NCBI GenBank assembly: GCA_003223295.1
Contig: QHYM01000127.1
Location: 1-35,204, forward strand
Direction: 5' to 3'
Source: Acidobacteriota bacterium
GTDB taxonomy: Bacteria; Acidobacteriota; Terriglobia; Acidiferrales; UBA7541
DNA length: 35,204 nucleotides
Below the pieces are notes generated by a model, which searched no databases, was not told the origin of the DNA, and saw nothing but the letters and a program-made list of their open reading frames with translations. How positions within the stretch are numbered: position 1 is the first letter of the stretch; each line of letters opens with the position of its first letter. Both the position numbers and the translations under genes were made by a program. Below are positions 18,925 through 24,554 of this stretch, piece after piece.

Positions 18925-19962
18925 TTATTTTTTCGTGGCGGCGGCTTTAATCTCCAGCCCCGGCGCGACGACCGGCTGAAGGAAAGGCATCATCGCGCGA
19001 AGCTTGGGTCCGAGTTGCTCGATTTGATGTTGCTGCTCGCGCTGACGCGTGGCCAGAAAGTTGGGGCAGCCCTTTTCGTTTTCTTCAATCCACTTCTTGG
19101 CGAAGCTGCCATCGCGAATTTCCGCCAGAATCTTGCGCATCTCCTCGCGAGTTTGTTTTGTCACAACTCGCGGCCCGGAAACATAATCGCCCTGCTCGGC
19201 GGTGTCGCTGACTGAATAGCGCATATAGCTGAGCCCGCCGCGGTAAATCAGGTCCACAATCAGTTTCAGTTCGTGCATGCACTCGAAGTACGCAACTTCC
19301 GGCTGATAGCCCGCTGCGACAAGCGTCTCGAAGCCCGCTTTGATCAATTCGCTGACGCCGCCGCAAAGCACCGCCTGCTCGCCAAAGAGGTCTGTCTCGG
19401 TTTCCTCAGTGAACGTCGTTTCCAAAACGCCGGCCCGCGTGCAACCCAGTCCTTTCGCGTAAGCGAGCGCCAATGCCTTGGCGCTTCCGCTCGCATCCTG
19501 TTCCACGGCAAGCAACGCAGGCGTGCCGCCGCCTTCGGTGAAAACTTCTCGCACACGATGACCGGGCGCCTTAGGAGCAATCATGGAAACATCGACGGTC
19601 TTTGGCGGCTTGATCGCGTCAAAGCGAATGTTGAAGCCGTGCGCGAACATCAGCGTCTTGCCCGCTTTGAGATTCGGCTCGATCGCGTCGCGATAAAGCT
19701 TCGGCTGCTTGGTGTCCGGCGCCAGAATCATGATGACGTCCGCCCACGCCGCAGCCTGCGCGGGCGTGTTGACCGTTAGCCCTTCTTTTTCGGCTTTCGC
19801 ACGCGAAGCACTGGTTTCCGGCAGGCCGACGCGCACGGTAACGCCACTGTCGCGCAGGTTGAGCGAGTGTGCATGCCCCTGCGAGCCGTAGCCGATGATG
19901 GCCACCTTCTTCGCCTGGATGAGTGCAAGATTCGCGGAGTCGTCGTAGTACAGATTAGCCAT
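18925..19962 (-). CDS. ilvC: Ketol-acid reductoisomerase (NADP+), class I
   Basis: This enzyme converts acetolactate or acetohydroxybutyrate to the dihydroxy acids, the second common step of Val/Leu/Ile synthesis. The 345-residue length fits short class I enzymes. The Rossmann motif [17 protein letters not shown] lies at about 25-41. The knotted all-helical domain includes [16 protein letters not shown] and [14 protein letters not shown], with the metal-binding acidic residues. ATG 19962 has AGAGGAA just upstream. It follows ilvN by 115 nt, the only sizeable gap in the cluster. Confidence 0.97.
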
Positions 19963-20077: not shown

Positions 20078-20620
20078 TTACTTCACGCCAGAACCTGCGG
20101 ATTCGAGCGCCGAACTCTCGACCTCCAGCAACGGTGGGCGCAACAAATCGTTGCCGCGGGTCATGGAAATGCGCCCGGTGCGCGCCATCTCCAGCACGCC
20201 GAAGGGACGAAGCACTTCGAGCAGGCCATCGATTTTGTCCACCGTGCCCGACACTTCGATAATCAGTGATTCGGGAGCCACGTCCACCACGCGCGCGCGA
20301 AACACTTTAATCAACTCCATCAGGTGCGGCCGGTTCTGCTGATCGGCCGCCACTTTGATCAACGCCAGGTCGCGTTCGAGCAGGGCACGGCTGGAAATAT
20401 TTTCGGCCAGAAGCACATCCACGAGTTTCTCGAGGCTTGCTTCCAGGCGATGCGCTCCGCGTTCATCGGTATGCGCAACGATGGTCATGCGCGCGATCTC
20501 TTCGTTTTCCGTTGGTCCAACGGTAAGCGAGTCGATGTTGATCGCCAGGCGCCGCGCGAGTGAGGAGACGCGATTCAGCACGCCCGGTTTGTTTTCGACG
20601 TAGGCAACGAGTGTTTGCAT
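20078..20620 (-). CDS. ilvN: Acetolactate synthase small (regulatory) subunit
   Basis: This is the ACT-domain regulatory subunit that confers valine feedback on acetolactate synthase. The 180-residue product starts TLVAYVENKPGVLNRVSSL, the canonical ACT ligand loop, with INIDSLTVGPT following. A second ALS_ss_C domain lies in the C-terminal half (SGTVDKIDGLLEVLRPFGVLEMARTG trimmed to its core). ATG 20620 follows GAGGAG closely; an alternative ATG at 20638 overlaps the ilvB stop as ATGA and adds six residues. Either way it is coupled to ilvB. Confidence 0.93.
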   Translation of the reverse strand: MQTLVAYVENKPGVLNRVSSLARRLAINIDSLTVGPTENEEIARMTIVAHTDERGAHRLEASLEKLVDVLLAENISSRALLERDLALIKVAADQQNRPHLMELIKVFRARVVDVAPESLIIEVSGTVDKIDGLLEVLRPFGVLEMARTGRISMTRGNDLLRPPLLEVESSALESAGSGVK

Positions 20621-20634
20621 GCTCTCCTCTTTCT

Positions 20635-22347
20635 TCATGCGTCCGAAGCGGTTTCCACCAGCGGATTGTGCGGCCGGCGAATCATGTCGTGGAGCGACGC
20701 GCCCGCAGCAACCATCGGGAAAACGGAATCTTCCTGCTCCACGCGGAAATCGAGCAAAACCGTTTCTCCGGCCTCCCGCGCCCCGCGAATTCCCGGAGTC
20801 ACCTCCGTGCGTTTGGTGATGCGCTCGGCGCGGATGCCGAATGCGTTGGCCAGCGCGACAAAATCGGGTGCCACCAAAGGTGTGGCCACATAGCGCTTGT
20901 CGTAAAAGAATTCCTGCCACTGGCGCACCATGCCGAGATAGCCGTTGTTGATGATAGCGATCTTCACGTTGATTTTTTCCTGGACGATGGTGGCCAGTTC
21001 GCTCATGGTCATCTGGAATCCGCCGTCCCCAACGACTACCCAGACTTCCGAGTCGGGCTTCGCGAATTTTGCGCCGATGCCTGCGGGGAGCGCGAAGCCC
21101 ATCGTGCCGAGCCCACCGGAAGTAATCAGCGTGCGCGGGCGATCGTGATGGTAATACTGCGCTTCCCACATTTGGTGCTGGCCCACGTCGGTCACCACGA
21201 TGGCCTCGCCGCGCGTTTCCTTCCAGAGATCGTTGATGACGTGCGCGGCATAGAGATGGCCGGTGTCGGGCAAGCTCTGGATGTCGCGCACTGCGGAGTC
21301 GCCCTTCAATTCATTAATGTAGCGGATCCAGGCGCTGCGATCCCGCGTTTCGATGTGCGGAATAAGGTTCTCGATCATTTCGCGCGCGTCACCGATGAGC
21401 GCCGCATCCACTTTCACGTTCTTGTTGATTTCGGCGCGGTCAATTTCGATGTGAATCTTGCGTGCGTTCTTCGCGTAAGTGCGAAGGTCGCCCGTGACGC
21501 GGTCATCGAAGCGCATCCCCACAGCGATGAGCAAGTCGGCTTCTTGAATCGCGTTGTTCACCCACGCTTCGCCGTGCATGCCCATCATGCCGAGGTTGAG
21601 CGGATCTTTGGCGGGGAAGCCGCCGATGCCGAGTAGCGTCATCGCGACCGGGAAATTCCCCACGCGGACAAACTTTTCAAACGCTTCCATCGCGTTGGAA
21701 AGCATGATTCCCCGGCCAGCCAGAATCACTGGGCGCTTGGCGGTGTTCAACAATTCCACGGCGCGGTCAAACTCTGCCTGATCGTGATTGTTGCGGATGC
21801 GCTTTGGCGGAAGTTTCGGCGCGCAAGCGTCCCAATCAAATTGCGTGGTGGCCTGCTGCGCGTCTTTGGTGATGTCCACCAGTACTGGACCGGGGCGCCC
21901 GCCCCTGGCGATGACAAACGCCTCGCGAATCGTTCGCGCAACATCCCCGGCTTGCGTGACCACCACGTTGTGTTTGGTGATGGGCATGGTGATGCCGGTG
22001 ATGTCGATTTCCTGGAACGCGTCGGAGCCCAGAACTTTGCTGCTCACTTGGCCCGTGATGCAGACCACTGGCGAAGAATCCATCATGGCCGTGGCAATGC
22101 CCGTCACCATATTGGTTGCGCCGGGGCCCGACGTGGCCATGGCCACGCCGACACCGCCGCTGGCGCGCGCGTAACCATCGGCCATGTGTGTTGCGCCTTG
22201 CTCGTGGCGCACCAGGACGTGATGGAGTTTTGATTTACCGAGCGCGTCATAAACGGGAAGAATCGCGCCGCCGGGATAACCAAAGATTTCGCGCACGCCA
22301 AGACGCGTGAGCGTCTCGCAAAGTATTTCTGCACCGGTTAACTTCAT
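20635..22347 (-). CDS. ilvB: Acetolactate synthase large (catalytic) subunit
   Basis: This thiamine-diphosphate enzyme condenses pyruvate to acetolactate. The 570-residue protein has the three expected domains: PYR (with the activating Glu49 in [15 protein letters not shown]), a central FAD-binding domain ([10 protein letters not shown]) and the PP domain with the ThDP/Mg motif from [12 protein letters not shown] to IINN. ATG 22347 overlaps the ilvD stop (ATGA), and GAGGA lies 4 nt upstream. An upstream in-frame extension to 22491 lies inside ilvD and was rejected. Confidence 0.96.
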
Positions 22348-24074
22348 GGGGTCCTCGCATTTCGTAGAGGCTGAGCCGATGCCGTAAGAGAGGCGGGCAA
22401 CGATGTCACTGCGCCAAGAGAGGATGAAGAAACCAGCAGCGCGTACTTGGCCATCACGCCGTTCGAGAATCGTGGAGCCGGCGGCTTCCACAAAGCCATG
22501 CGCTTCTGAATTTCCGCAGCCGTAAGCCCCACGTTCAACTGGCGATTGGGAATGTCGAACGTGATTGTGTCTCCGTCAGCGATGGCTGCAATCGGGCCGC
22601 CATTCACCGCTTCGGGCGCAACATGTCCCGCCATTAGTCCGTGCGTGGCGCCGGAGAAGCGCCCATCCGTCAAGAGCGCCACCGAATCGCCCAGCCCTTC
22701 GCCCACCAGCGCGGCCGTGACGGCAAGCATTTCACGCATGCCGGGGCCGCCCTTCGGTCCTTCGTAGCGAATGACCACGACGTCGCCCGCTTTGATCGCG
22801 CCCTTTTCAACTGCTGCGAACGCAGCTTCTTCGTTGTCAAAAACGCGCGCGGGGCCGCTGAAATTCTGAAGATTGTGTCCGGCGACTTTGATGACGCAGC
22901 CTTCCGGCGCGAGATTTCCTTTCAGGATGACCAACCCGCCCGTGGGTTTGAGAGGAGCGTCGAGTTTGCGAACCACTTCTTGCTTCGGCGTTTCCTTCGC
23001 GGCGTTGGCTTCTTCGCCGAGCGTGCGGCCGGAGACGGTGAGGCAATCGCCGCGGAGAAGTCCCGCTTCCAAGAGGCGCTTCGCAACCAGCGCGGTGCCG
23101 CCTGCCGCATACAGATCGGTGGCCACGAACTTTCCACCCGGCTTCAGATCGGCAAGAATCGGAACGCGCGCACTGATGCGGTCGAAATCGTCGATGGAAA
23201 GAGGAATTGTCGCTTCGTTCGCGATCGCCAGCAAATGCAAGACAGAATTGGTGGAACCGCCTGTGGCCGCAACGCCTGCAATGGCGTTTTCGATGGCAGA
23301 TTTCGTGATGATCTTCGATGGCGTCACATTTGTGCGAAGAAGGTCGAGAACCAACTCGCCCGCGCGGTGCCCTGCTGCCGCTTTCGCAGAATCCGTTGCG
23401 GGAACGCTCGAAAGTCCCATAGGGGCGATGCCCAGGAATTCACAAACCAACGCCATGGTGTTCGCGGTGAATTGCCCTCCGCAAGCGCCGGCTCCCGGAC
23501 AAGCGGAAACCTCCAGTGATTTGAGCTGGGCGTCGCTCATGCTGCCGCGGGCGTGCGCGCCAATCGCTTCGTAAACATCCTGAATGGTGACCGCGTGGCC
23601 TTCGAATTTACCCGGCGCGATGGACCCGCCATACAAAACGAGACCGGGAATATTCAGGCGCGCCAGCGACATAATGCCGGCGGGAATGGTTTTGTCGCAG
23701 CCAACGAGAACGACAAGCGCATCGAACAAATTGCCGCGCGTCACCAATTCAATCGAATCGGTGATGACTTCGCGGCTCACCAGTGAAGCGCGCATGCCTT
23801 CGGTGCCCATGGTGATGCCGTCGGAGATGGAAACGGTGTTGAACTCGAGCGGCGTGCCGCCTGCATCGCGAATTCCTTTCTTGACGTGTTCTGCTAGTTC
23901 GCGGAGATGATAGTTGCACGGGCCAATTTCGATCCAGGTATTCGCGACGCCGATGAGCGGTTTCTGAAAATCGTCGTCTGTAAGTCCGCAAGCGCGCAGC
24001 ATGGCGCGCGCTCCGGCGCGATGGGCTCCGTCAATGAGTGCATGGCTTCGAGGTTTGAGCTGTGAGTCGGTCAC
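22344..24074 (-). CDS. ilvD: Dihydroxy-acid dehydratase
   Basis: This Fe-S enzyme forms the 2-oxo acids, the third common step of branched-chain amino acid synthesis. It is 576 residues long, with cluster-ligand Cys residues in GCDKTIPAG and [12 protein letters not shown], and the family signature [11 protein letters not shown] near the C-terminus. The start is GTG 24074, preceded by GGAGGAG at 7 nt. It is the first structural gene of the cluster. The C-terminal 20 or so residues run past the usual family end and overlap the ilvB start. An attenuator-like leader lies 56 nt upstream. Confidence 0.96.
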
Positions 24075-24129
24075 TTGCTAACTCCTCCGCTGCTGCGAAA
24101 ACGGCGTCGATTCCTAGGAAGCAAGTCAC

Positions 24130-24166
24130 AAAAAACTAAAGCCATCACCCGGGTCTGGATGATGGC
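24130..24166 (-). terminator. Attenuator terminator hairpin of the ilv operon
   Basis: Read on the minus strand, GCCATCATCC (24166-24157), loop AGACCC and GGGTGATGGC (24150-24141) form a 10-bp stem with one G-T pair. It is followed by TTTAGTTTTTT (24140-24130). It sits 56 nt before the ilvD start codon, that is, inside the operon leader. Its 5' arm is the same segment used by the competing antiterminator. Confidence 0.85.
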
Positions 24167-24207
24167 CGAATTCTTGTGGTTCGCTTTGGCTTAGGCCGCC
24201 ATCATCC
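24157..24207 (-). promoter_or_regulatory. Antiterminator hairpin of the ilv attenuator
   Basis: The segment GGATGATGGC (24207-24198) is a perfect 10-nt complement of GCCATCATCC (24166-24157), with a 31-nt loop. Pairing it would sequester the 5' arm of the terminator. The stop codon of the leader ORF (24204-24202) lies inside the first arm. A ribosome finishing the leader would block this stem and let the terminator form, while one stalled at the upstream Val/Leu/Ile codons would leave it free. Confidence 0.8.
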
Positions 24208-24321
24208 GCTGGTGCGTCCTCCTACGAGGACAAAGCCAATTCCTACAATTACGAGGGGTACTCGGCCGCTCTGAAAAACGGCGTGGCCGCCCCGCGCAAT
24301 GGTGATGGCGATGCTTCGCAT
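24202..24321 (-). CDS. Branched-chain amino acid leader peptide (attenuation)
   Basis: This 39-residue ORF from ATG 24321 contains the run VPLVIVGIGFVLV at residues 21-33, so 9 of 13 codons are for Val (5), Leu (2) or Ile (2). Four of the five Val codons are GTA, an uncommon choice in GC-rich DNA. The last control codon ends 16 nt before the antiterminator arm, a distance that suits a stalled ribosome. The design matches ilv leader peptides known from other bacteria, with no sequence homology claimed. No ribosome binding site is seen before the ATG. The best promoter would start the transcript almost at the ATG, so the leader may be read from a leaderless or near-leaderless mRNA. The peptide itself probably has no other role. 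Confidence 0.75.
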   Translation of the reverse strand: MRSIAITIARGGHAVFQSGRVPLVIVGIGFVLVGGRTSG

Positions 24322-24331
24322 ATCGCCATGA

Positions 24332-24360
24332 AGAGTATCAGGATGAGGGCGGAGAGTCAA
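24332..24360 (-). promoter_or_regulatory. Candidate promoter of the ilv operon
   Basis: TTGACT (24360-24355) and TACTCT (24337-24332) are separated by 17 nt on the minus strand. The -35 has one mismatch; the -10 is poor. Transcription would begin at about 24326-24321, next to the leader ATG. An AT-rich stretch (24361-24410) lies behind it and may act as an UP element or hold the divergent promoter (TATGAT at 24403-24408 on the plus strand). Confidence 0.4.
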
Positions 24361-24554
24361 TCAGTCAAATTAATAGTTATGTTGAATCAAATAAAAGCAA
24401 ATTATGATTGGTTGCCGTTGGGCGGCGCCGAAATACAGCTGGCGGAATGTCACGGAGATGTCATTTTTCAAGGCCGCAAAGCATCTTTGCGCGTTTCCCT
24501 ACATCTAACCGGACAAGGCTCTGCACCAGGTCTCATTTGGGTGGGAGGAAATTC

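Follow-up and report, generated by a model that had tools for sequence, protein, structure and literature searches.

The 35,204-nt stretch of DNA analysed here (the window; contig QHYM01000127.1 of assembly GCA_003223295.1, a draft genome of ~6 Mb in 481 contigs) carries ilvD, ilvB, ilvN and ilvC, all on the minus strand and downstream of a short region in which a leader ORF runs into two competing hairpins. Does this region control the operon by transcription attenuation, and does it stand alone in its phylum? An earlier note on this DNA had proposed a complete transcription attenuator for ilvD-ilvB-ilvN-ilvC in a probable Acidobacteriota lineage. The host is an acidobacterium of the class Terriglobia, the parts of the element are confirmed to the base, and the comparative tests were passed; we put the probability that the element is a ribosome-mediated transcription attenuator, and one of a phylum-wide Acidobacteriota family with a common switch sequence, at roughly 0.92. 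The parts, their conservation, the covariation of both helices and the match between leader codons and pathway, on which this reading draws, are all legible in the sequences themselves. The features are collected in Table 1.

Table 1. Features of the ilvD upstream region and of the operon in the window
Feature	Position	Strand	Basis or remark
-35 element TTGACT, inside conserved TATTAATTTGACTGATT block	24363..24368	-	genus alignment, near-invariant
-10 element CATCCT	24340..24345	-	genus alignment; CATNCT in most relatives
5' hairpin ATGGCGAT (24329-24322) / ATCGCCAT (24312-24305)	24305..24329	-	leader ATG in loop
Leader peptide ORF	24202..24321	-	39 codons; stop TGA 24204-24202 within arm 1
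Control codons V P L V I V G I G F V L V	24223..24261	-	V/I/L 9 of 13; rare GTA for 4 of 5 Val
Arm 1 (antiterminator 5' arm) GGATGATGGC	24198..24207	-	
Arm 2 (shared arm) GCCATCATCC	24157..24166	-	
Arm 3 (terminator 3' arm) GGGTGATGGC	24141..24150	-	
T-tract TTTAGTTTTTT of intrinsic terminator	24130..24140	-	sequence
ilvD ribosome-binding site GGAGGAG	24082..24088	-	sequence; 7 nt ahead of GTG start
ilvD, dihydroxy-acid dehydratase, GTG start	22344..24074	-	NCBIfam TIGR00110, 5e-206
ilvB, acetolactate synthase large subunit	20635..22347	-	NCBIfam TIGR00118, 2e-218; start inferred, overlaps ilvD stop
ilvN, acetolactate synthase small subunit	20078..20638	-	translation, by inspection
ilvC, ketol-acid reductoisomerase	18925..19962	-	translation, by inspection; homologous to the family's IlvC matches

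The leader ORF, which reads MRSIAITIARGGHAVFQSGRVPLVIVGIGFVLVGGRTSG from ATG 24321 to the TGA stop, matches exactly what had been claimed for it: 39 codons, nine Val/Leu/Ile codons within 13, and GTA for four of the five Val. At the sequence level it is short and clusters codons for the end product of the operon, as attenuator leaders do. ATG-initiated ORFs with at least nine V/I/L codons in 13 arose in 18 of 20,000 dinucleotide-preserving shuffles of 24130-24400. GTA makes up only 2 of 115 Val codons (1.7%) in ilvD, ilvB and ilvC (binomial p = 4.5e-7), and across the genus it accounts for 47 of the 106 Val codons in the 3' parts of the leaders, versus 6.5% in the ilvD genes of the same genomes. 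Because the tRNA for a rare codon should empty early, GTA would be a sensible control codon. The leader ATG has no clear Shine-Dalgarno sequence ahead of it. Between the end of the last GTA (24223) and the start of arm 1 (24207) lie 15 nt rather than the 16 nt given in the earlier note, the one slip in a set of positions that is otherwise right; the leader stop lies inside arm 1, as described there, and it does so in most family members.

Arms 1 and 2 form 10 perfect pairs, and arms 2 and 3 form nine Watson-Crick pairs and one G-U pair, with one further pair possible, so that both the antiterminator and the competing 10-bp terminator with its T-tract are present where they had been placed. A 10-nt three-arm arrangement of this kind was obtained in 0 of 20,000 dinucleotide-preserving shuffles of 24130-24400. 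Arms 1 and 3 are each complementary to arm 2, and both covary with it (see below), as mutually exclusive hairpins do, and the intrinsic terminator precedes ilvD, the first structural gene. Predicted fold energies are about -20.6 kcal/mol for the arm 1-2 hairpin region and about -18.6 kcal/mol for the arm 2-3 hairpin; when arm 1 is masked in folding, the terminator alone remains. Full-length minimum-energy folds leave the winner of the two hairpins undecided, as would be expected of a kinetic, ribosome-driven switch.

The switch had been called a minimal three-segment one. Its three arms are there, and "minimal" may be incomplete, as most relatives have a conserved 5' hairpin ahead of the arms, and in two of them (L021 and L030) its stem shows compensatory changes. 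In about half of the genus the 3' arm of this hairpin can also pair with arm 1 (7-10 bp, z ~2-3, a signal that overlaps the hairpin's own conservation), which is suggestive only of a protector of arm 1 like that in the four-segment (1:2/3:4) enteric type. We speculate that the hairpin may time ribosome and polymerase, or pair its 3' arm with arm 1.

A promoter-like block conserved in the genus alignment lies upstream of the leader. Nearly all aligned members of the genus have TTGACT or TGGACT, separated by a 17-bp spacer from CATNCT, and transcription would start at about 24333, ~12 nt 5' of the leader ATG. The block around TATTAATTTGACTGATT (24361-24378, minus strand) is almost invariant in the genus, exceeding what a -35 box needs, and may contain a binding site for an activator or an UP element. 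On the upstream side of the switch the neighboring gene is divergent, as judged by inspection, and hence the hairpin does not serve to terminate a gene further upstream.

Within the genus, 31 of 36 genomes have the element ahead of ilvD, among them all 24 of good quality. In an alignment of 30 upstream regions the start codon usually lies 54-68 nt past the start of the TATTAATT block, and most relatives encode a peptide rich in branched-chain amino acids (BCAA) that ends at TGA (GGA-TGA) in arm 1, often as V-V-R-I-x-P-V-x-V-R-G. Both the conservation of a Val/Leu/Ile-rich short ORF and the retention of the two stems, which the earlier note had suggested checking in homologous ilvD upstream regions, are thus seen in most relatives. 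In a few, the leader or arm 1 is degraded (L025-L028 and L032); L019 and L024 are without leader and switch, and in these the promoter block is kept, a natural deletion from which it follows that the element is not essential and which makes the two genomes useful as controls. Leader differences fall on codon positions 1, 2 and 3 in the ratio 111/99/126; with so weak a substitution bias, what is conserved in the leader is codon type and register and not a protein sequence. The arms hardly vary within the genus, which makes within-genus pair counts uninformative; in one relative (L012), arm 1 GATAATGG and arm 2 CCATTATC have changed together.

Covariance models of the switch core alone, with the leader ORF excluded (R1, then R2, built on 25 sequences), extended the search beyond the genus. 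Across 399 genomes of the class and 396 of the phylum, R2 matches fall in ~20 Acidobacteriota families, in ~15 of which a leader and a matching gene were checked; the loci include Vicinamibacterales and Vicinamibacteraceae MAGs (L055, L064), and several genomes hold two to four separate sites. With the genus and phylum matches as positive controls, the same search found the core in none of 39 genomes of other phyla. Sites were read individually and their downstream genes checked by NCBIfam and tblastn. Leaders rich in V/I/L precede ilvD, ilvB, ilvN, leuA, cimA, ilvA and pheA-ilv operons; Thr leaders, such as one ending in RPTMTRTTTITTGDSSGG, precede homoserine dehydrogenase (hom) and aspartate kinase; and Cys leaders, such as one ending in TCPRRCVACCCRQDFVCG, precede cysM and siroheme synthase (cysG)/sulfite reductase operons. 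The switch sequence in common is GG-A-UGA-UGG / CCAUCAUCC / GGAUGAUGG followed by a U-tract. Eleven covariance-model matches (L167, L171-L173, L175, L177, L179-L181, L273 and L274) were dropped as other terminators or chance, and minus-strand matches overlapping plus-strand ones were set aside as mirror images of the palindromic core.

Several sites were recorded apart from these operons. Elements with V/L-rich leaders stand ahead of LysR-type regulator genes at L185, L209 and L248, the products of which are possibly regulators of the same pathways. Glutamate synthase (gltB) follows the elements at L190 and L266, whose leaders contain Thr/Ile and not Glu or Gln. Elements with Leu/Ile-rich leaders are convergent to ilvC at L184, L186, L243 and L245 (also L279, L281 and L282), and those at L279 and L282 precede an ORF of 88-99 aa (MDGSSSTKVWMDGRLQ...). 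A second, GC-rich candidate type of BCAA attenuator was seen upstream of ilvD at L035, L087, L126 and L127, in a genome of the same order, Geothrix, a deltaproteobacterial MAG and an Obscuribacterales MAG; it has leaders such as one ending in LLVVVVVLIALIALGCGPPF and terminator arms like GGCCCCGCAYCC / GGNTGCGGGGCC, and these four loci have no Rfam match.

Leader composition follows the pathway. Over the 25 codons that lead up to the stop near arm 1, the V/I/L fraction is 0.394 in BCAA operons versus 0.155 elsewhere, the Thr fraction 0.243 in Thr operons versus 0.065, and the Cys fraction 0.26 in Cys operons versus 0.009 (20,000 label permutations, p<5e-5 in each case, p-values that overstate independence as the sites are related by descent). 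The Thr set spans ~5 families and the Cys set four sites in two families (L239, L252, L261 and L265), of which L252 lies 1.3 kb ahead of cysM with another gene likely between. When the frame is fixed by the arm-1 stop alone, the V/I/L fraction is 0.37 versus 0.11 and 0.18 in the other frames, and all four Cys leaders pass; the Thr leaders taken alone do not reach significance in this test, because several of them terminate at another stop, 5 nt beyond the first.

Both alternative helices covary, as the earlier note had proposed to check. Among 92 aligned elements (alignment A3, one row of which, the minus-strand match L031, is a mirror image), the terminator shows 40 both-sides-changed cells versus 10.4 in shuffles and the antiterminator 17 versus 4.6 (0 of 500 shuffles in each case, control (a) of the pair counts ignoring relatedness). 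The alignment was fitted to the terminator structure and the antiterminator is absent from the structure of the model, which makes the antiterminator count the cleaner of the two. Positions of arm 2 covary with arm 1 and with arm 3, which is what a shared arm would have to do.

Transcription, termination, stalling and regulation, as we infer them from these patterns, would proceed as follows. When Val-, Ile- and Leu-tRNAs are charged, the ribosome would pass the GTA-rich run to the stop codon and cover arm 1; arm 2 would then pair with arm 3, the terminator would form, and RNA polymerase would halt before ilvD. When these tRNAs are scarce, above all the one that reads GTA, the ribosome would stall in the control run, its front edge leaving arm 1 (15-54 nt downstream) free to pair with arm 2, so that the terminator would be blocked and ilvD-ilvB-ilvN-ilvC transcribed. 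Across the family, the same switch carries leaders whose codons correspond to what the operon behind it makes, be it Val/Ile/Leu, Thr or Cys.

Three other explanations deserve consideration. The hairpin might be a plain terminator preceded by a chance or unrelated small ORF, with no switching at all, a view to which the terminator lends itself as the strongest and most conserved part of the element, and which sits well with the two relatives that manage without it. Such a terminator, however, would give no account of the conservation of arm 1 and its covariation with arm 2, or of leader codons that track the pathway, and with the upstream gene divergent it would have no transcript to terminate; we consider it very unlikely. 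Nor do we expect the mainly translational alternative to be correct, in which the sequence of a nascent peptide (VVxRIxPVxVRG) itself causes the ribosome to stall, or translation of ilvD is coupled to that of the ORF: a VVRI-like core with its non-BCAA Arg does recur in the genus and in L162 and L164, yet the leader of the window itself carries G where the pattern has R, family leaders have an amino-acid type in common and not a sequence, and the leader stop lies ~127 nt ahead of ilvD with the terminator between. This alternative is the most improbable that we considered.

A leader that senses a protein or ligand (a riboswitch or an RNA-binding regulator) could use the same antiterminator/terminator pair, with the ORF incidental. 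The arms are highly conserved in primary sequence, which could mark a binding site, although one arm that pairs with two others is already restricted in its variation; and candidate ilvB leader codons in Streptomyces coelicolor were changed without effect, according to a citation in PMC1262725. Against such sensing, no Rfam family matches the element, no conserved domain resembling an aptamer lies between promoter and arm 1 apart from the leader ORF and the short 5' hairpin, and one set of arms is used for BCAA, Thr and Cys operons, in which mainly the leader codons differ. We therefore hold sensing of this kind to be highly improbable, and favor the ribosome-mediated attenuator.

Ribosome-mediated attenuators are familiar from the enteric ilvGMEDA, leu and thr operons (e.g., E. 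coli IlvL and ThrL). The Acidobacteriota elements resemble these in having a leader rich in the regulated amino acid and an antiterminator alternative to an intrinsic terminator, and some Thr leaders of the family, such as one ending in TMTRTTTITTGDSSGG, resemble ThrL. They differ in phylum, in arm sequences for which we recognised no counterpart in the enteric systems, in a stop codon at a fixed place in arm 1, and in the use of one arm sequence for operons of different amino acids. Corynebacterium glutamicum ilvBNC, with its ilvB-II motif (PMC10272879, PMC11857589), likewise combines a BCAA-rich leader with competition between antiterminator and terminator; its transcription start lies very near the leader start codon, as ours probably does, and a hairpin over the initiation site, which our 5' hairpin recalls, has been described there (PMC11857589), whereas its phylum is another, its peptide is the short MTIIRLVVVTARRLP, and no sequence relation was recognised. 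The ilvB-OMG and Leptospira ilvB RNA motifs, which have BCAA/Thr-rich uORFs upstream of ilvB and are proposed attenuators (PMC10272879), are defined by other conserved structures, which gave no Rfam match here. Actinobacterial cys leader peptides have runs of Cys codons near the stop, upstream of cys operons, and no conserved terminator was found with them (PMC1262725); the Acidobacteriota Cys leaders, unlike these, carry the arm 1/2/3 switch. Naville and Gautheret 2010 predicted premature terminators in Acidobacteria, almost none of them with an associated function, and reported leader peptides in no groups other than Proteobacteria, Actinobacteria and, as a new addition, Firmicutes (PMC2965389).

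At the gathering threshold of Rfam 15, neither the window nor 20 family members have a match, ilv-type and ilvB-OMG families included; at E 10 the window yields nothing relevant, and a weak match to Polynucleobacter-1 on the plus strand (E 0.41) was taken as chance. No paper on ilv attenuation in Acidobacteria was found among those searchable; Lopatovskaya et al. 2010 (Mol Biol 44:128) is reported to be a survey of bacterial attenuation, and an earlier prediction is possible. The suggestion that the element may be undescribed holds within the bounds of Rfam 15 and the searchable papers. The mechanism is a textbook one; what is apparently undescribed is the taxon, the switch core in common and the range of pathways, the unusual part being one sequence core across three amino-acid pathways. 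We give about even odds that a single ancestral core was copied within the Acidobacteriota with its leader codons swapped, yielding a modular, sequence-conserved, phylum-wide regulon for Val/Ile/Leu, Thr and Cys, possibly with LysR regulators and gltB, that is undescribed in the searched sources.

Acidobacteriota rank with the most abundant bacteria of soils, and the regulation of their amino-acid synthesis is little known. The family supplies a ready model with which ilv, leu, thr and cys operons can be annotated throughout the phylum. Since it is mainly the codons of the leader that differ from site to site, with a switch that hardly varies, the family offers natural replicates for measuring the effects of codon identity and ribosome position on termination.
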